This document shows, piece after piece, positions 7,950-49,191 of a stretch of DNA of 64,000 bases; within the stretch, counting starts at the first letter, position 1; each line of letters starts with the position of its first letter. Below the pieces are notes generated by a model, which saw only the letters and a program-made list of their open reading frames with translations, did not search any database and had not been told where the DNA came from. A program made the translations under genes and the position numbers. This DNA comes from Brumimicrobium oceani (GTDB taxonomy: Bacteria; Bacteroidota; Bacteroidia; Flavobacteriales_D; Crocinitomicaceae): NCBI RefSeq assembly GCF_003143775.1, contig NZ_QFRJ01000010.1, positions 1 through 64,000 on the forward strand. The letters run 5' to 3'.

Positions 7950-8190
7950 AGCCTTTAGAAGCCATTGAAGAAACAAAGGAAAAATCTCAAATTCGGCAAG
8001 CTCCGTGTCCCTCTACATAGGCAGGCTCAGCACAGGTGTGAAAAAACCAAGTGCCGAAGGCGCTCTTTGCGAACCTCCGCACCTCCAAATAACTCCGCGT
8101 CACCTTCTTCTCCGTGTAACTCTGTGAAAAACCTCCTTTGCCTCTGTGTAAAAACCAGTGCCGAAGGCGCTCTTCAAGCCTGACCAATTC
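7950..8190 (-). repeat. ACGCAGAG-type interspersed repeats
   Basis: On the minus strand the stretch reads as runs of short phrases (CACAGAGGCAAAGGAGG, ACACGGAGAAGAAGG, CGCGGAGTTATTTGG). The phrase GCGCCTTCGGCACT occurs twice, about 110 bases apart, and ATTCGGCAAGCTC is present. The same phrases fill the gaps at 10735, 29235, 29565 and 30960. Confidence 0.6.
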
Positions 8191-29233: not shown

Positions 29234-29739
29234 GAATTACGCTGGTGACTTATTAAGAATTACGCGGAGGTTCGCGGAGAGGCAGAGATAAGCGGAGAAA
29301 AAAAATAAAGAAGAATTACGCAAAGTTTCGCGGAGAGGCAGAGATACGCGGAGAAAAAAATAAAGAAGAATTACGCGGAGCGAAAATAATGATTAATTAT
29401 TAAGGTTTAATTATTAACGCGATAGGGTTTTTAGAATGACTAATTGTTAATGTTTAATTATTAATGCGGTAGGGTTTTGTAATGATTAATGTTTATGGAT
29501 TAATTATTAATGCAGTAGTGACAGGTTGAGATTTGGACTTGATATTTTTACACAACTCTTAACCTTTCTTCTTTTTCCTTTGAGGAACATTTCGTAACCT
29601 CTGCGAATCACATTCGGCAAGCTCGGCGTAAATCTTTCCTTTGCGAAACTTTGCGTAACCTCTGCGAATCACGGCGTCAATCTTCCCTTTTCTTTGCGAA
29701 CCTTTGTGAGAACTTTGCGTATCTCTTCGTAATTATTTC
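29234..29739. repeat. Intergenic filled by two repeat families
   Basis: Bases 29238-29385 are tandem phrases of ACGCGGAGGTTCGCGGAGAGGC with a period near 68. Bases 29386-29520 are two and a half units (about 57-64 bp) of TTAATGTTTAATTATTAATGCGGTAGGG. Bases 29565-29735 return to ACGCAGAG-type DNA in the opposite orientation, with ATTCGGCAAGCTC. The two ACGCAGAG blocks are therefore inverted around the AT-rich block. No gene seen. Confidence 0.7.
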
Positions 29740-30944: not shown

Positions 30945-31290
30945 AAATTTTAACTCCAGAGATGTTGAAGTTGGCAGAGTAAAGCAAGAATGACGCAGAG
31001 CGTTGAACTGAGCTTGCCGAATGTGGTTCGTAGAGGTGCAGAGGTTCGCAGAGAAAAAAAGAATTACGCAAAGATTCGCAGAGGGGCAGAGATTCGCAGA
31101 GAGGAAGAAAAATTACGCAGAGCGCTGCACTGAGCTTGCCGAATGTGGTGCGCAAAGTAAAGAAAAAATGACGCTCTGTTTCGCAGAGGGGCAGAGATTC
31201 GCAGAGAGGAAGAAAAATTACACAGAGCGCTGCACTGAGCTTGCCGAATGTGTTACGCAGAGGAGAAGAAAAGGGAGTTGAGAGTGAAAA
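30945..31290 (+). repeat. ACGCAGAG-type array with 105-bp tandem unit
   Basis: Three copies of GAGCGnTGnACTGAGCTTGCC followed by GAATGTG start at 30998, 31120 and 31225. The last two sit in a near-identical 75-base block (31076 and 31181, period 105). The short phrases CGCAGAG and TTCGCAGAG recur throughout. It fills the gap between the NtrC-like gene and pth and reads open in one frame by chance. Confidence 0.8.
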
Positions 31291-32004: not shown

Positions 32005-33933
32005 CTACTCCTCTTTAAAAGTAAAACTAATCACAGTGTTCCAATCTTTTTCTGAATTATGTTTCAGAATGCCATCGTAATTTGAAATTATGGTTTCAAT
32101 CAGCTCCATTCCGAAACTCGTTTCATAGTATTCTTTTATAAAGCCAACACCGTTATCTCTGTACACGAGCTCAAAAAAGTTCTGCTCTACCCTATGTAAA
32201 GAAATCTTAATTTTTGGATCAGTAATATCTTCGGTAAATGCGTGTTTAAAAGAGTTGGTAATTAATTCATTTAATGCAATTCCTAAATTAATTAATGTTT
32301 CAACTTTAAAAGGAATTTTTTCAGAGTCTATGGCTATTTTAATCGGAGTCGTTCCAGTTTTATTCAGGTTTTCGACAAGCCTTTCCAGATAGTTTTTAGC
32401 ATCTATGTCCTTAAACTTTTCTTGTCGGTAAATCACATCATGCACAATTGCCATAGCATTAATTCTATTGACCGCTTCTTCGAAATTTTGGCGTAAAACT
32501 TCATTTTCAAAACCATGAGATTGAAGTCGAAGCATGCTGGATACAATTTGGAAATTATTCTTGACCCTATGATGTACTTCTTGAAGAAGTAATTTTCTTT
32601 CCTCACTTTGCTTGGTAATGATTTTATTATGTTTTCTAACTGTCCTTAGCCTGAAAACGATAATCAAGGCAAAGATTAGCAAAAGAATAAATAAGCCTGC
32701 GAGCAACATATAAATGTAGCTTCTTCTCTCGCCTTCCTCAGCAGTTTTTAACTCCAGCTTAATCTGCTCATTTTCTGCAATTAAACTCTGTTTATCCAGC
32801 TTATACCTTACTGTCTCTAATTCGTTGAGCTGATCGTTTAATTGTTCTTTGTGCTCATTAAGAAAATCTATTACTTTTTCCTGATGAAATGCCAAGTTTT
32901 CTGTATCATTGATTTCTTCGTAGACCTTCAATAAAATATTTAATGTAACATATTCGGCACGTCTATTTTTAATTTTTCTGCTCAAATCCAGCGCCTTTTG
33001 ACCATACGCTATTGATGTCTGATATTCCCCCTTCAAAAAATAATAGTCTGTTAGATTTAACCATAGATAAGACCTATCGTAATCAGAATCGGTCTTTTCT
33101 ATCATTTCCGCAGTTCTATCAAAATAAACCTTGGCTTTGTCCAGCTCTCCTGTATTCTTGTAAAACTGTGCCAAATTGCTGTAAACATTAATTCGAGTTA
33201 AGTCATCGTGGGTAAATTCAGATAAACTAAGGGCTTCCAAAAACAACTCTAATGCCTCATCTAATTTACCTTGTCGTTTGTTCATTGTCGCGATAGAAAC
33301 AAGTAAGTACACCGTAGCATCTACATTATCACTATCTCTACTTAGGGCTAAGGCCTTCATTAAGTACTCATTCGCCCGTTCATAGTCCTTTTGTCTATTG
33401 TACAAAATGCCGATACTTCTGTACCCCGACGTTAGACCTGCTGAATCTTTAAAATCTACATATAATGATGTAGCATCATGTAATAACTGCATGGAAAGCG
33501 GTTCTTTTCCTACTCTTGAATACGCCACCGCTAGGTCGAGGATAGCATCCGCATACTTATGCATTTCATTCTCCGCCTTATAAATAGCGGAGGACTTTTC
33601 GAAAGCCTTTACGGACTTAATCGGGTCATTTCCGTGGAGAGTGGAGTTCCCATAATAATACAATATTCCCGCTACAGCTAGGCGGACTTCTCTTGACTGA
33701 ATGGTATCGCTATTTATACGATGATAAAAAGAATGTCCAATTTCTGCATAATGATTTATACTATCAATGCCTTCTATTGAATCAAAATAGAGTAGCTTTT
33801 CATAAACATCACGGAATTGTTGATTGTCTACCTCTAAACTAGGAAGAACATCATCATTAGCGGCTAAAGAAAATGAGTTGAGAATCATAATCCATAGAAA
33901 CCAGTATTTAACTTTTCCAGTGATTCTTTGCAT
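32005..33933 (-). CDS. TPR sensor histidine kinase, paralog 1
   Basis: A 642-residue membrane sensor kinase: signal peptide-like start (MQRITGKVKYWFLWIM), about six TPR repeats outside the membrane (about 90-350), a coiled coil, one membrane segment (about 400-425), a HisKA_2 domain with EVHHRVKNNFQ (His454/455) and a HATPase domain with NELITNSFKHAF, DNGVGF and SFGMELIE. It should autophosphorylate in response to something sensed by the TPRs. No response regulator is next to it. Last of four same-strand paralogs; a TACTTTTG box lies 29 bases upstream. Confidence 0.92.
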   Translation of the reverse strand: MQRITGKVKYWFLWIMILNSFSLAANDDVLPSLEVDNQQFRDVYEKLLYFDSIEGIDSINHYAEIGHSFYHRINSDTIQSREVRLAVAGILYYYGNSTLHGNDPIKSVKAFEKSSAIYKAENEMHKYADAILDLAVAYSRVGKEPLSMQLLHDATSLYVDFKDSAGLTSGYRSIGILYNRQKDYERANEYLMKALALSRDSDNVDATVYLLVSIATMNKRQGKLDEALELFLEALSLSEFTHDDLTRINVYSNLAQFYKNTGELDKAKVYFDRTAEMIEKTDSDYDRSYLWLNLTDYYFLKGEYQTSIAYGQKALDLSRKIKNRRAEYVTLNILLKVYEEINDTENLAFHQEKVIDFLNEHKEQLNDQLNELETVRYKLDKQSLIAENEQIKLELKTAEEGERRSYIYMLLAGLFILLLIFALIIVFRLRTVRKHNKIITKQSEERKLLLQEVHHRVKNNFQIVSSMLRLQSHGFENEVLRQNFEEAVNRINAMAIVHDVIYRQEKFKDIDAKNYLERLVENLNKTGTTPIKIAIDSEKIPFKVETLINLGIALNELITNSFKHAFTEDITDPKIKISLHRVEQNFFELVYRDNGVGFIKEYYETSFGMELIETIISNYDGILKHNSEKDWNTVISFTFKEE

Positions 33934-38695: not shown

Positions 38696-40627
38696 TCAAT
38701 CCTCTTTAAATGTGATTTTAAATAGTGTACTCCAATTATTTATAGGGGCATAGGTCACTTCTCCTTCAAAATTAGAAATAATGGTTTCAATTAATTCCAT
38801 TCCAAAACTTGATTCGTAAGCTCCCTTACTGATTCCTACACCATTATCTTTATAAACTAACTCATAGGTCTTATCACCTATTTCTCGTAAAGATATTTCA
38901 ATTTTTGGCTGGGCAATCTCATGATTAAAGGCATGCTTAAAAGAATTTGTAATTAATTCATTTAAAGCAATTCCTATGTTAATTAAGGTTTCAATTTTAA
39001 ATGGAATTTCTTCAGAATCAATGGTAATTAAAATACGGCTATCTCCAGATTTTCGGAGACTTTTTATCAGTTTTTCCAAATACCTTTTTGAATCAATATC
39101 CTTAAATTTTTCTTGACGGTAAATAACGTCATGCACTATGGCCATAGCATTAATGCGGTTGACTGCCTCCTCAAAGTTTTGACGTAAAGTTTCATTATCA
39201 AAATTATACGATTGCAAACGCAGCATACTCGAAACAATTTGAAAATTATTCTTTACTCGGTGATGAACCTCTTGTAACAGCAACTTACGCTCTTCACTTT
39301 GTTTGGTGATGATCTTGTTTTTCTTATTGCTAGAATTAAGCCGAACAATTATAAACAGTAGAAAAGCTACCAATAGAATGATAAAAATAATTGCTGTGGT
39401 GTAATAAATTGAAAGAATGTCGCGCTCCTTCTCAATTTCGAGTTGTCTTCTAAAAACTTTATATTCGTTTTTATACTTCTCCTTTTCTAATTTGTATTTT
39501 ACCGTTGTATTTCTATTTAATTGGTCACGTAAGTTCTTATTTAATAATTTGTAATAATCAAGCTGTTTGTTCAGTACCTCTGCGATTTTAGCCTGATCTT
39601 GCGTTTGCTCATATATTTTTAGTTGCACCTTCAAAGCATTAAATTCACCTTCTGGATTATCCGTCTTAATCGCTAATTTTATGGCCTCATCTAATTTTTC
39701 CTGAGCTAATTTATTTTCTGATCTCAGGATATAATACTTCGCCATATTGGTTAAAACATAAGTTTTTCCAAATTCAAAATTTGATTCATTCAAAATATTT
39801 AGCGCGCGGCGGAGGTAGTCAATTCCTTCTTCAGGCCTATCGTTTTCCACGTAAATCGAACCCAAGTTATTTAAAATCAGCGAAACATTAACTTCATTAT
39901 CAATTAGCTTGGCGTATGAAAGTGATTTTTGATAGCTTTTGATCGCTTCCTTGTAATCTCCTGACTCTCTTTCAATTCTAGCTTTAGTATTCTGAAGGAT
40001 TGATAACACATAGTGGTTCTCCAATACTTCACCAATTTCTAAACCTCTAGAAACAAAGTTTTGTGCTTCACTAAAATTATTTTGACGACTATAGAACTCG
40101 CCCATGCTATTAAAACCAAGTGCCATCCCTACAGAGTCCTTTAAATCAATATAAATTTCAATAGATTGACTTAAATAATGAATGCACTTAGCCTCATCGC
40201 CAATGTTAGAAAATAAAATACCCAACACAGACCAAGCATCTGCCAATTTGCTTTTTTCACCCAATTCTTCATACAACTCGGCTGCTTTCTTGTAGCCAAT
40301 GATTGCTTTGAATGTTTCGGATGTTTCGTAGTATTCCTCTCCGTAATAGAAATATATATCTGCAAATTGCGTCAAAACTTCATTGGATTGTTTCGCAACA
40401 AAATTATAACGCTCGACATAGTCATATCCTCTCTTTACGTAATATTGTAGACTGTCTTTGTTCTCTTCAGAAGTAAAAAATTGAATTTTACGAATGGTCT
40501 CAGATAAAGTGTCTTCTGAGAATTCGGAAAGGTTCTCAAGTTTATTTTTTTGAGCTGCTGAACTTGATACGAAAAGGAATAACCCTATTGTAATAGCTAT
40601 AAAATACTGACTTTTTTTACGGATCAT
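38696..40627 (-). CDS. TPR sensor histidine kinase, paralog 4
   Basis: A 643-residue kinase of the same plan: signal-like start (MIRKKSQYFIAITIGLFLF), TPR repeats (about 95-370), coiled coil, one membrane segment (about 405-430), HisKA_2 (EVHHRVKNNFQ near residue 453) and HATPase (NELITNSFKHAF, DNGVGIS, SFGMELIE). I start at 40627 because an upstream Met at 40702 would add 25 residues that do not fit the leader pattern of the paralogs. It is the first of the four in transcription order, 80 bases after the Ig-like lipoprotein gene. Confidence 0.92.
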   Translation of the reverse strand: MIRKKSQYFIAITIGLFLFVSSSAAQKNKLENLSEFSEDTLSETIRKIQFFTSEENKDSLQYYVKRGYDYVERYNFVAKQSNEVLTQFADIYFYYGEEYYETSETFKAIIGYKKAAELYEELGEKSKLADAWSVLGILFSNIGDEAKCIHYLSQSIEIYIDLKDSVGMALGFNSMGEFYSRQNNFSEAQNFVSRGLEIGEVLENHYVLSILQNTKARIERESGDYKEAIKSYQKSLSYAKLIDNEVNVSLILNNLGSIYVENDRPEEGIDYLRRALNILNESNFEFGKTYVLTNMAKYYILRSENKLAQEKLDEAIKLAIKTDNPEGEFNALKVQLKIYEQTQDQAKIAEVLNKQLDYYKLLNKNLRDQLNRNTTVKYKLEKEKYKNEYKVFRRQLEIEKERDILSIYYTTAIIFIILLVAFLLFIIVRLNSSNKKNKIITKQSEERKLLLQEVHHRVKNNFQIVSSMLRLQSYNFDNETLRQNFEEAVNRINAMAIVHDVIYRQEKFKDIDSKRYLEKLIKSLRKSGDSRILITIDSEEIPFKIETLINIGIALNELITNSFKHAFNHEIAQPKIEISLREIGDKTYELVYKDNGVGISKGAYESSFGMELIETIISNFEGEVTYAPINNWSTLFKITFKED

Positions 40628-40707
40628 AAGTGTTTGTAATGCAAAAAAATAAACATGACTTAAATAAAAAAAGAGGTATACTCTTAAAGCTTTTTTATAC
40701 AATTGTC

Positions 40708-43942: not shown

Positions 43943-44518
43943 CTACCCCTGTTTACGAATGTAGTTCTCTACTTCCTTGGAGAAATTTTTATGCTCTATT
44001 TCCAACACCTTTTTCTGAATTGTTTCTGCACTATCTTTCGATGATAAATTTACTTTATGTTGCGCTAGAATTTCTCCTTCATCATAGATTTCGTTTACTA
44101 AATGAATTGTAATACCTGATTCGGTTTCTTTATTTGCTAAAACGGCTTGGTGTACCTTCATTCCATACATTCCTTTTCCTCCGTATTTTGGTAGTAAAGA
44201 AGGATGAATGTTGATGATTTGCCTTGGAAAGGCTTTGATTAATTCGTTTGGGATTTTCCTTAGATATCCCGCCAAAACTATATAATCAATGCGCTCTTCG
44301 TGCATGAGTTCTGTTAGAAAAGAACCGTCATTGGCTCCGTCGTTATTGATAACGGCATGATCTATTAAATCCTCTGTTTTCTCTAAAACTCCTGCGTTTT
44401 CATTGTTTGTTAACAGTAAAACTGCGTTAATTTCAGGTACTTTATCAAAGTGTTCAATGAGTTTAATTGCGTTGCTCCCTGATCCAGAAGCGAAAATGGC
44501 GATGCGTTTTGTGTTCAT
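43943..44518 (-). CDS. purN: Phosphoribosylglycinamide formyltransferase (GAR transformylase)
   Basis: A 191-residue PurN, which formylates GAR in purine synthesis using 10-formyl-tetrahydrofolate. The start is RIAIFASGSGSNAIKLIEHF; the active-site Asn and His are in IINIHPSLLPKYGGKGMYG, and the Asp loop in ESGITIHLVNEIYDEGEIL. I start at 44518: the open frame continues 114 codons upstream, but that part translates repeat DNA (KICAICENLREPQ and similar) and carries no family similarity. Confidence 0.94.
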   Translation of the reverse strand: MNTKRIAIFASGSGSNAIKLIEHFDKVPEINAVLLLTNNENAGVLEKTEDLIDHAVINNDGANDGSFLTELMHEERIDYIVLAGYLRKIPNELIKAFPRQIINIHPSLLPKYGGKGMYGMKVHQAVLANKETESGITIHLVNEIYDEGEILAQHKVNLSSKDSAETIQKKVLEIEHKNFSKEVENYIRKQG

Positions 44519-44924
44519 AGGGGTAAAAATAAGGTTAATTCTGTGGTTTTCTCGCAGATATTTTGGGTATCGTGGATTTTTTTGGTGGGGGCGCTGCGCT
44601 CTTTTTGGGGTTCCCGCAGATTTTCGCGAATTGCGCAGATCTTTTTTATGGGCGCTTCGCTTGTTTTTTTCGCAGATTTTTTTGGTGGGGATCGCTGCGC
44701 TCTTTTGGGGTTCTCGCAGATTTTCGCAGATTGCGCAGATCTTTTTAGGGGCGCTGCGCTTGTTTTTTTGGATAGGGTACTGCGCTCTTTTTTGTATAGT
44801 GTTCGTGAGGTTATTCTTATAGAGTACAGACATACTTTTGAACGAGATACATCTAATCACATGAAGATCAATATCTTAATAAAATCTGTCAATCGACTAG
44901 ATTTTTAAGAACAACTCACCTGCG
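44519..44924 (-). repeat. CGCAGATTTTCGCAGATT array, upstream of purN
   Basis: Bases 44540-44785 are two to three units of a repeat with CGCAGATTTTCGCAGATTGC, GCGCAGATCTTTTTT, GGGCGCTTCGCTTGTTTTTT and GGTGGGG phrases. It has the same orientation as the array at 45590-45835. The remaining bases up to 44924 show nothing recognisable. Confidence 0.75.
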
Positions 44925-45078
44925 AAACCTTCTGCTGAAATCTGCGAGATCTGCGGGAAACTTCCACCCTACAAACATCAAACCTTCTGCGAAAATCTGC
45001 GAGATCTGCGGGAAAACCCCACCCAACAAACACCAAACCCTCTGCGGAAATCTGCGAGATCTGCGGGGAACTTCCTCC
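44925..45078 (+). repeat. Three 55-bp tandem repeats abutting the GxxExxY gene
   Basis: TCTGCGAGATCTGCGGG recurs at 44940, 44995 and 45050 (exact period 55). The last unit ends at the GxxExxY stop codon. The core phrase TCTGCGAAAATCTGCG is the inverse of the phrase in the arrays at 44540 and 45590, so this array and the 45590 array form inverted repeats around the gene. Confidence 0.85.
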
Positions 45079-45456
45079 CTACAATCCATTCACTTTCCTA
45101 AAGATCCCTGAGTTTATTTCTTCTACATTAAAGTTAATTAGCATCGCTAATTTTAGATTGGTGATTTTTAAATAGGTGAGTACCTGTTTGTGGTGCACTT
45201 TTGCTAATTGCTCTACCGATTTAACTTCAATTATTACTTTTTCCTCTACCAACAAATCCAGTCTGAAACCTAATTCTAATTTAGCTTCTTCGTAATAAAC
45301 AGGTACAGATACTTCTTTCCGTACACTTAATCCTGCTTTTTTCAGTTCGTAGACTAATGCCGCTGAATAGACCGATTCCAATAGTCCTGGGCCGAGGTTG
45401 TTGTATATACTGAATATTGCTCCTCGAATTTTATAAGAGATTTCATTTTCTGTCAT
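45079..45456 (-). CDS. GxxExxY protein (PD-(D/E)XK nuclease-like)
   Basis: A 125-residue protein of the GxxExxY family: signature G24-LL-E27-SV-Y30, then a restriction-endonuclease-like core with Asp67 (GFRLDLL), Glu77-Val-Lys79 (VIIEVKS) and Gln91xxxTyr95 (QVLTYL), the arrangement of PD-(D/E)XK nucleases with a RecB-type QxxxY motif. Families of this type can be multicopy and their function is not established. The gene is set between inverted repeat arrays (44925-45078 and 45590-45835). A good ribosome-binding site (AAAGGAAG) precedes the ATG. The active-site residues are intact, so the protein may be functional. Confidence 0.88.
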   Translation of the reverse strand: MTENEISYKIRGAIFSIYNNLGPGLLESVYSAALVYELKKAGLSVRKEVSVPVYYEEAKLELGFRLDLLVEEKVIIEVKSVEQLAKVHHKQVLTYLKITNLKLAMLINFNVEEINSGIFRKVNGL

Positions 45457-45867
45457 GGTGCTTCCTTTATTAGATTGATTTTTGAATTTAAGTGATGGTA
45501 TGCTCTAAACAGTAATTTTGTGATTTTGCGGTTTTTAGTTTTCTAGATTAAGATAAGTAGAATATTTTAGTAAATGGCTTTTGTTAGGTGTTTTTTTGGT
45601 GGGGGCGCTGAGCTCTTTTGGGGTTCCCGCAGATTTTCGCAGATTGCGCAGATCATTTTAGTGGTGCTTCGCTTGTTTTTTCGCAGATTTTCAAGGATTG
45701 CGCAGATCTTTTTTGGGTGGAAATCGAAACGCTCTTTTGGGGTTCCCGCAGATTTTCGCAGATTGCGCAGATCTTTTTTATGGGCGCTTCGCTTGTTTTT
45801 TTTAGATGAGGCGCTGCGCTTTTTTTTGGGTTAATGGGTGCTTGGTGGGAGTTTGTCTTGGACAATG
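45457..45867 (-). repeat. CGCAGATTTTCGCAGATT array, upstream of the GxxExxY gene
   Basis: Bases 45590-45835 hold three units with CGCAGATTTTCGCAGATTGC at 45628 and 45747 (a degenerate one between), GCGCAGATC, GGGGTTCCCGC and GCGCTTCGCTTG phrases. Nearly the same phrases, in the same orientation, occur at 44540-44785. Bases 45457-45589 are AT-rich with no gene and should hold the GxxExxY promoter. Confidence 0.8.
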
Positions 45868-46257
45868 CTAAACAACGGCGATAGGTTTTTTATTGTCATC
45901 CATCGCTACCATAGTGAAGGTTCCTCTAACGGCTTGTTCACGTTTTTGGGAGTACATTTCTTCAACAAAAATTTCCACTGAGACAACAATACTTGTTCTA
46001 CCGACTTTTTCAACATTTGCTATTAATTCAACCAAGGTTCCACTGGGAATAGGCTTTTTAAAATCTACTCTGTCTGAGCTTACTGTAACTACTTTTTGTC
46101 GACTAAACCTTGTGGCACAAATGAAAGCTACTTCATCCATTAACTGAAGCGCTGCTCCCCCAAATAAGGTGTCGTAGTGATTGGTGGTGTTTGGAAATAC
46201 TGCCTTAAAAACTTTTGTTTCCGCTGCTGCAATTCTTTCTTCAATTGATTTATTCAT
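45868..46257 (-). CDS. Acyl-CoA thioesterase (hotdog fold)
   Basis: A 129-residue hotdog-fold thioesterase of the YciA/ACOT type, hydrolysing acyl-CoA esters. NHYDTLFGGAALQLMDEVAFICA gives the family's catalytic Asp and substrate-tunnel helix, and VTVSSDRVDFKKPIPSGTLVEL the following strands. It overlaps the end of the upstream MATE exporter gene by eight bases, so the two are co-transcribed; the functional link, if any, is not clear. Confidence 0.88.
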   Translation of the reverse strand: MNKSIEERIAAAETKVFKAVFPNTTNHYDTLFGGAALQLMDEVAFICATRFSRQKVVTVSSDRVDFKKPIPSGTLVELIANVEKVGRTSIVVSVEIFVEEMYSQKREQAVRGTFTMVAMDDNKKPIAVV

Positions 46258-47976: not shown

Positions 47977-49191
47977 TTACTCAGTATCATCTTCGCTTAA
48001 AACAAAATGATAGTGCGTTCCAGAATCATTAATTTCCCTTTTAAAACTTCCGTCTAACTGATCTGTAAAAACTTCAATCAATTGTGTTCCAAAGGTTTTT
48101 TTAGGATTCTCTTTCCAAACTCCGTCATCAGAATAAGTCATCATAAATTCTCCTTGCTTTCCTGAAACCAAAGAAAGGTCTATTCTACCTGATTTCTCAA
48201 AGGCATGCTTAACTGTATTGATAACTAGTTCGTTTATAATTAAACCCAGCGGAACAATATTCTTAGCACTAACACTTTCAAGGCTCGAATTCACCTCAAA
48301 ATCAATCTGCTTGTTTAATGCACTGCTGTCGATAAGATTCTGAATTAAAGTACTAATGTAGTCCTTTATGTCAATGTTCATTAATGACTCTTTTTCGTAT
48401 AGCTTTTGATGAATCAGTGACATGGCTAGAATTCGAGTAATTGCTTCTTCGAAACTTACTTTAGCTTCTTCCGACTGAATATCTCTAGATTGTAAGCGCA
48501 GCAAGCTCACAATGACTTGTAAATTGTTTTTTACCCTGTGGTGAATTTCTTGCAATAAAACAGTTTTCTCTTTGTTTTGGTGGTCTACAATTTTCTTTTC
48601 ATTATTTAGTTTTTCATAAGCTTCGGAGGCATGTTTGAAAGCATATTTGTTGATTAAGCCATATTGGTACATAACATAACCTATCATAAACATAGCAACA
48701 GCAAATTCAACAGATAATAAAAACAAGGCGTCTGGTCTTATCGTAAGACTTAAATAGGCCGTTCCTGCAAATTGAAAGTTATAGTAAACCCCATAAAACA
48801 AAGCATTCACAGCAAGATAAAAGAAGCCCCAAACATTCCCTAAGGTAAAGAAAGCTGAAAGAATTAACACCACCATCCATAAGGCTTCTTGCAGGTGTAG
48901 AGATTCTGGAACAGTAAATATTGCAATTCCTATAACTAAAGTTACTACCAGGTAAAGTACTCTCGCTATTTGATGATAAGCTCCATACCTTTTTAATAAG
49001 AATAGACTTGTGGAGGTAGTAAGAACAAAAATGAGATAGTAAATAAAAAAGCGATCTTCAACCAAAAGTGTAAAAATTGACATTGCAAATCCTACAATAG
49101 TGAAAACTATGTTGATACGCCAAACAAAATTAAACTTTGCTTTTTCCTGAAAACGATATAGAATGCTGTCTGGAGTTTTTAAATTACTCAT
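47977..49191 (-). CDS. HisKA_2 sensor histidine kinase with multi-span membrane sensor
   Basis: A 404-residue kinase: six or seven N-terminal membrane segments (about 25-185), a short coiled coil, then a HisKA_2 domain (EIHHRVKNNLQVIVSLL near residue 216) and a HATPase domain (VPLGLIINELVINTVKHAF, YSDDGVW, FGTQLIE). The catalytic part is related to the four TPR kinases at 32-40 kb but clearly divergent, and the sensor is membrane-embedded rather than TPR-based. No response regulator is adjacent. It is likely an independent gene, divergent from the trans-sulfuration gene. Confidence 0.9.
   Translation of the reverse strand: MSNLKTPDSILYRFQEKAKFNFVWRINIVFTIVGFAMSIFTLLVEDRFFIYYLIFVLTTSTSLFLLKRYGAYHQIARVLYLVVTLVIGIAIFTVPESLHLQEALWMVVLILSAFFTLGNVWGFFYLAVNALFYGVYYNFQFAGTAYLSLTIRPDALFLLSVEFAVAMFMIGYVMYQYGLINKYAFKHASEAYEKLNNEKKIVDHQNKEKTVLLQEIHHRVKNNLQVIVSLLRLQSRDIQSEEAKVSFEEAITRILAMSLIHQKLYEKESLMNIDIKDYISTLIQNLIDSSALNKQIDFEVNSSLESVSAKNIVPLGLIINELVINTVKHAFEKSGRIDLSLVSGKQGEFMMTYSDDGVWKENPKKTFGTQLIEVFTDQLDGSFKREINDSGTHYHFVLSEDDTE

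Follow-up and report, generated by a model that had tools for sequence, protein, structure and literature searches.

GxxExxY nuclease-like genes and their flanking repeat arrays appear to form a single DNA element, so far undescribed and probably mobile

Closest described systems and the GxxExxY locus

REP and REPIN sequences and their RAYT proteins (Y1/HUH) constitute 'REPtrons', in which short intergenic palindromes occur in many gene-less copies and a repeat-flanked gene is rarer; the repeat words are 20-40-mers tagged with GTAG/CGTC (PMC3733652, PMC3116915). The GxxExxY genes analyzed here resemble these systems in that one repeat is common to the gene flanks and to many gene-less copies, and in that the gene copies are repeat-specific. 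In contrast, the enzyme is of the PD-(D/E)XK type and matches PF13366, not the HUH/Y1 profile PF01797, and the words (CRCDRAG or CRCDRAT) are spaced 9-11 bp apart, with several units per arm and no GTAG/CGTC tags. The analogy with REP elements drawn in an earlier note on this DNA could be retained in the sense of 'works like', since most array loci in the genome of the window (the whole stretch of 64,000 nucleotides analyzed) lack the gene, but the protein is not a RAYT, its fold and its repeat words being different.

Three other systems are relevant. As with MITEs and their autonomous insertion sequences, gene-less elements share the inverted ends of the gene-bearing element; however, no DDE, Ser, Tyr or HUH domain is present in the GxxExxY element, no target-site duplication was found at the diverged sites compared, and each end is an array of units instead of a single fixed sequence. 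I-Ssp6803I and I-Bth0305I are PD-(D/E)XK homing endonucleases. GxxExxY proteins belong to the same broad nuclease superfamily and a break-and-copy spread is possible for them as well, whereas their genes lie outside introns and inteins and are flanked by repeated sites, and the structural similarity is weak. Finally, Cas4/RecB-like QxxxY nucleases offer the closest fold (SSO0001) and share the QxxxY motif. Unlike Cas4, which has four cysteines for an Fe-S cluster, the window protein has no cysteine and therefore no such cluster, and no cas genes are adjacent.

The GxxExxY family occurs in many phyla beyond Bacteroidota, and no paper on its function or on a repeat partner was found in the literature searched, which left out most subscription journals; nor did that literature yield a paper with the repeat sequences in the context of these genes. 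The flanking words CACAGAG, CGCAGAG, CGCAGAT and CACGGAT are common intergenic repeats, so far unexplained. A link between the two would give both the gene family and the repeats a testable role.

The features of the window are listed in Table 1. Its GxxExxY protein is a full member of TIGR04256 GxxExxY (142.5 bits, cut-off 35) and PF13366 PDDEXK_3 (140.3 bits, cut-off 22), and five residues (D67, E77, K79, Q91 and Y95, the last two forming Q91xxxY95) were invariant in an alignment of 35 sequences, which agrees with the earlier reading of a 125-residue protein carrying the full PD-(D/E)XK set. In the AlphaFold2 model (pLDDT 95.2), the best PDB match was Cas4 SSO0001 (Z 9.5, rmsd 3.2 over 99 residues), with lower Z for restriction enzymes and Hjc; Foldseek returned PD-(D/E)XK matches, all of them weak, and no sequence relative with known structure was found. 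On the basis of the catalytic set and the modelled alpha-beta core, the protein could be placed in the PD-(D/E)XK superfamily, its nuclease activity being inferred.

Table 1 Features of the window
Feature	Positions	Strand	Description
GxxExxY gene (TIGR04256/PF13366)	45079..45456	-	125 aa, predicted minimal PD-(D/E)XK nuclease fold; profile matches, alignment, AlphaFold2 model
Array 5' of GxxExxY gene	45591..45832	+	CGCAGAT units 9-10 bp apart
Array 3' of GxxExxY gene	44925..45084	-	Three 55-bp units, CGCAGAT word in opposite orientation to 5' array
Outer array	44553..44769	+	Repeats the 45591-45832 array in direct orientation; period about 100
purN-thioesterase interval with inserted block	44519..45867	.	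70-73 bp in G001 and G009, without gene or array
purN-like gene, insertion-site flank	43943..44518	-	
Acyl-CoA thioesterase gene, insertion-site flank	45868..46257	-	
Gene-less AG-class element	29263..29719	.	CGCGGAG/CGCAAAG array at 29263-29380 (forward), reverse array at 29599-29719; no GxxExxY gene
Gene-less AG-class array	30994..31262	+	CGCAGAG units
Gene-less AG-class array, weaker	8001..8148	-	6 units

The gene is enclosed both by an inverted pair of arrays and by a direct pair, as the earlier note had described, and both the TRF array and the copies of a ~91-nt family (D1; two at 44578-44768 and two at 45591-45800, all in the same orientation) agree with this layout. Nearly all CRCDRAK units of the three gene-side arrays are CGCAGAT; in the 5' array they occur in twos or threes, nested in longer units of 54-119 bp. 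The three repeats on the 3' side had been called exact-period repeats of 55 bp: the period is indeed exactly 55 bp, but their sequences (44925-45089) are only 85-87% identical. Genome-wide, the pattern CGCAGATTTTCGCAGATT (at most two mismatches) gave 49 matches, compared with 0 for the reversed control. Besides purN and the thioesterase gene, the neighbours in the window include a MATE transporter and RidA, with no cas1 or cas2. The gene-less AG-class element has a further tandem repeat, of period 47 (AATGATTAATTATTAAGGTTTAATTATTAACGCGATAGGGTTTTAG), between its two arms, at 29388-29510; because of this position, repeat families in the window genome can be said to nest.

Arrays at GxxExxY genes in the genus, across phyla and in Bacteroidota

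The window genome contains seven GxxExxY genes, one of them cut by a contig end, and on inspection by eye nearly every copy was flanked by repeats on both sides, each with its own version of the word. Within the genus, at least two CRCDRAK units were present within 400 bp on both sides of 24 of the 29 GxxExxY genes; the corresponding figures were 1/30 for Y1-transposase genes and 1/16 for housekeeping loci. Three genus copies outside these 24 carry CATTAAG (L015), CACATAG (L026) or ATCATAG (L029) arrays; another (L005) has distant units only, and L022 has at most a one-sided array of the ATCATAC type.

For a comparison across phyla, one genome per species was scanned, which yielded 80 GxxExxY loci from at least 10 phyla. 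In an unbiased test of 7-mers, in which no motif was presumed, CTCTGTG was observed 194 times within 300 bp of the gene (6.6 expected), at 50 of the 80 loci; CTCCGTG, CTCTGCG, CTTTGTG, CTTTGCG and CTTCGTG were also enriched there. Within 50 bp of the gene, on either side, unit density was 25-30 per kb, about 40 times the background of ~0.6 per kb far away; it fell to background by 400-1000 bp. Units were forward upstream and reverse downstream of the gene, so that they pointed inward on both sides. Their spacing peaked at 9-11 bp and then at 19-23 bp, near whole helical turns, as expected for several protein subunits on one face of the DNA, although such binding is an inference.

At least two units on both sides were found at 59 of 74 loci, compared with 2.6% of 2,690 control positions on the same contigs. 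Thus, GxxExxY genes elsewhere are tied to the repeat superfamily, and the arrays are not equally common beside random genes, two points on which the earlier proposal could have failed. When open-frame boundaries were used, both-sided arrays were present in the majority of phyla sampled: 28/41 loci in Bacteroidota, 6/7 in Pseudomonadota, 5/5 in Planctomycetota, 4/4 in Chloroflexota and 3/5 in Verrucomicrobiota, with smaller numbers elsewhere, including 0/1 in Cyanobacteriota. Several loci without words of the AG (CRCDRAG) or AT (CRCDRAT) type bear another word (CACATAG, CATTAAG or CGCAGTG). In divergent GxxExxY clades (L015, L022, L026, L028 and L029), CATTAAG, CACATAG and ATCATAC/ATCATAG appear in a similar layout, which suggests that the words in use go beyond the AG and AT classes. 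It should be noted that, when no motif was named, the similarity between left and right flanks exceeded the 99th percentile of controls at only about half of the loci.

The gene was found in 152 of 296 Bacteroidota genomes, with up to 12 copies. Against this baseline, carriers made up 62 of the 71 genomes rich in AT pairs (Fisher P about 6e-13) and 45 of the 48 rich in AG pairs (P about 8e-12), and AT-pair richness was more frequent in genomes with an AT-clade protein than in other carriers (37/65 versus 25/87; P about 8e-4). Some cautions apply to these figures: the richness threshold (at least 6 matches) was chosen after the counts were known, the counts came from manual tallies of tables, the genomes are phylogenetically non-independent, and the AG test left out G204 and G240, which had high control counts. 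The reversed-pattern control was close to zero in most genomes and exceeded the AG-word pattern in a few. Among the 144 genomes without a detected GxxExxY gene, nine were nevertheless rich in AT arrays. Two of these nine are strongly rich in AT-class pairs (G158, 68 matches; G167, 39); the partner may have been lost, or another enzyme may use the words.

Repeat words, gene-less copies and orthologous sites

Flanks were labelled AG or AT. On a protein tree of 173 loci with a label, 7 label changes are seen, compared with a mean of 45.7 and a minimum of 38 in 1,000 shuffles. Pairs of loci with 60-70% protein identity agreed in label in 96% of cases, and those with 70-80% identity in 99% (57% by chance), even though most of the loci come from different species and occupy different sites. 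At a finer level, window-like proteins go with CGCAGAT, L006-like proteins with CACGGAT/CGCGGAT (CRCGGAT) and a large AG group with CACAGAG/CGCAGAG/CACGGAG. Because both classes occur within one genome, host base composition does not explain the class of the word. The profile of flank k-mers followed protein identity less closely than the class label did (Mantel r 0.17, versus 0.04 for distal flanks). Alignment columns 14, 15, 18, 19, 29, 33, 90 and 113 differ between AG and AT proteins, but no single determining residue could be named because the class has changed only about 7 times. L042 (AT) and L085 (AG) form a natural switch pair, their proteins being 69% identical; L003, with CACAGAG, is another protein of the AG class.

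A word-protein signal of such depth would not be expected in neutral non-coding DNA. We infer either continued movement of the pair as one unit or upkeep or renewal of its own sites by the protein; the possibility that gene and repeat merely travel together could not be excluded. Protein-site pairs that have diversified naturally would be a source for reading a DNA-recognition code.

The gene-less copies are of two forms. Of the 21 sites inspected in G258 and G301, most are hairpins of ~100 bp with unrelated loop sequences; their arms usually comprise three units each (AACCACAGAG GCACAGAG AACACAGAG) and co-vary, the own partner being the best match in 16 of 17. The copies inspected in G000 and G282 are mainly tandem arrays. 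At gene-bearing loci, arms likewise resemble their own partner more than same-class arms of other loci, with 47% of arm pairs above the 95th percentile of mismatched pairs.

Comparison of orthologous sites, including the purN-thioesterase synteny that the earlier note proposed to compare, revealed differences in presence. At the thioesterase-purN interval, gene and arrays are present in the window (1,349 bp) and in G002 (about 1,150 bp), whereas in two relatives (G001 and G009) the interval measures 70-73 bp and the whole block is cleanly absent. Between trhO and lgt, gene and arrays are present in G000, G001 and G003, while G002 has both arms with other sequence between them and no gene. At this site the upstream array counts about 30 units in G000, whereas G001 and G003 have fewer than 10; it follows that arrays expand quickly. 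In G002 (L238), the unrelated sequence between the arms repeats the phrase CCATCCCTCTGGGATT, apparently another dispersed repeat. At the csaA-lipoprotein site, the gene is present in G000 and G002; G009 lacks it and has two stray units left. Neither a target-site duplication nor exact ends could be found, the empty and filled sites coming from different species that are too diverged for the ends to be defined.

Interpretation and alternative explanations

We consider it probable that GxxExxY genes represent the gene-bearing members of a repeat-element family, in a REP/RAYT-like pairing with a dedicated PD-(D/E)XK nuclease. Its architecture, generality, clade-specific units, gene-less derivatives and presence or absence at orthologous sites are direct observations. 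Recognition of the repeat units by the protein is likely; it is inferred from the co-variation of repeat and protein, without binding data. That the protein cuts or nicks the units, and so drives their spread, is inferred with about even confidence and without data on cutting or movement, and mobilization of the element is inferred more weakly than recognition. A broader claim would be that of a new class of bacterial transposable elements, in which one PD-(D/E)XK nuclease, whose DNA-recognition code diversifies, mobilizes helically phased arrays or hairpins of ~7-bp units, its own gene and gene-less derivatives across most phyla sampled; this remains tentative, and we would be slightly quicker to doubt than to assert it. 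If the pairing is real, it would offer a second way to the REP/RAYT lifestyle, based on unrelated chemistry.

In the working mechanism, the element consists of an array of ~7-bp units 9-11 bp apart, the nuclease gene and an inverted copy of the array, with gene-less copies (hairpins or tandem arrays) dispersed between genes. The PD-(D/E)XK protein would most likely bind phased units of its own class; once bound, it may nick or cut the DNA, or an extruded hairpin, at the units, and repair could then copy, spread or expand the repeats and occasionally the gene. A homing-like break-and-copy process carried out by host recombination would be the simplest route, and is preferred because no strand-transfer domain is present: the 125-aa protein is the sole coding sequence of the block between purN and the thioesterase gene, without a strand-transfer recombinase, and we know of no strand joining by a lone PD-(D/E)XK domain. 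Several GxxExxY copies are broken by stops, in which they may be likened to mobile families.

Other explanations have to be weighed. One, which we regard as unlikely but worth keeping, is that the arrays pre-existed and the nuclease cut gene-less arrays, into which its gene was copied by recombination, the repeats never being moved by the protein. Such a history is in keeping with the known PD-(D/E)XK homing endonucleases, with the occurrence of both arms-only and gene-bearing alleles at trhO-lgt and with the lack of a strand-transfer domain. However, both gene and array are missing from the purN-thioesterase site of G001 and G009, and so repeats and gene appear to have been gained jointly or lost jointly; moreover, the arms mostly form inverted pairs, where an interrupted tandem array would have direct ones. 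Less probable again is that the arrays were mobilized by some other enzyme (RAYT/Y1 or an IS transposase), with GxxExxY as cargo or landing by chance in repeat-rich intergenic DNA. The Y1 genes of the genus are practically unflanked by units (1/30 versus 24/29), the units lie within 50 bp of the GxxExxY gene and point inward, and the word tracks the GxxExxY clade at 60-70% protein identity; these observations weigh against it, even though Y1 transposases scored over the cut-off in 9 of 10 genus genomes and some array-rich genomes have no detected GxxExxY gene. Y1/RAYT as the partner of the arrays was rejected, the arrays being missing from Y1 flanks in the genus.

A regulatory or protective device, either autoregulation through the flanking sites or a defence nuclease with self-marking arrays, mobility being incidental, seems to us quite improbable. 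Helically spaced units on both sides of the gene and a fold near Cas4 would suit it, but downstream units are as dense as upstream ones, many gene-less copies occupy other intergenic spaces, and the window has no defence neighbours; a defence system was rejected, with weak Cas4 matches only in PADLOC. The units are short and degenerate, which leaves room for a sequence artefact, that is, low-complexity or terminator-like intergenic DNA gathering by any laterally acquired gene. We give this almost no credence and reject it: units are missing at control positions, transposase genes and housekeeping loci, and the reversed-pattern counts are near zero in most genomes (higher in a few for AG words).

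Further candidates were also tried and rejected. A phage origin was not supported: no match turned up among 50,697 phage records, and 2.9 million viral contigs gave a single relative; for spread by plasmids, only 8 of 72,556 plasmid records matched; and no known RNA family was found in the window block. Elsewhere in the window, three related sensor-kinase-like proteins (38696-40702, 32005-33933 and 47977-49191) share the motif LLQE(V/I)HHRVKNN.
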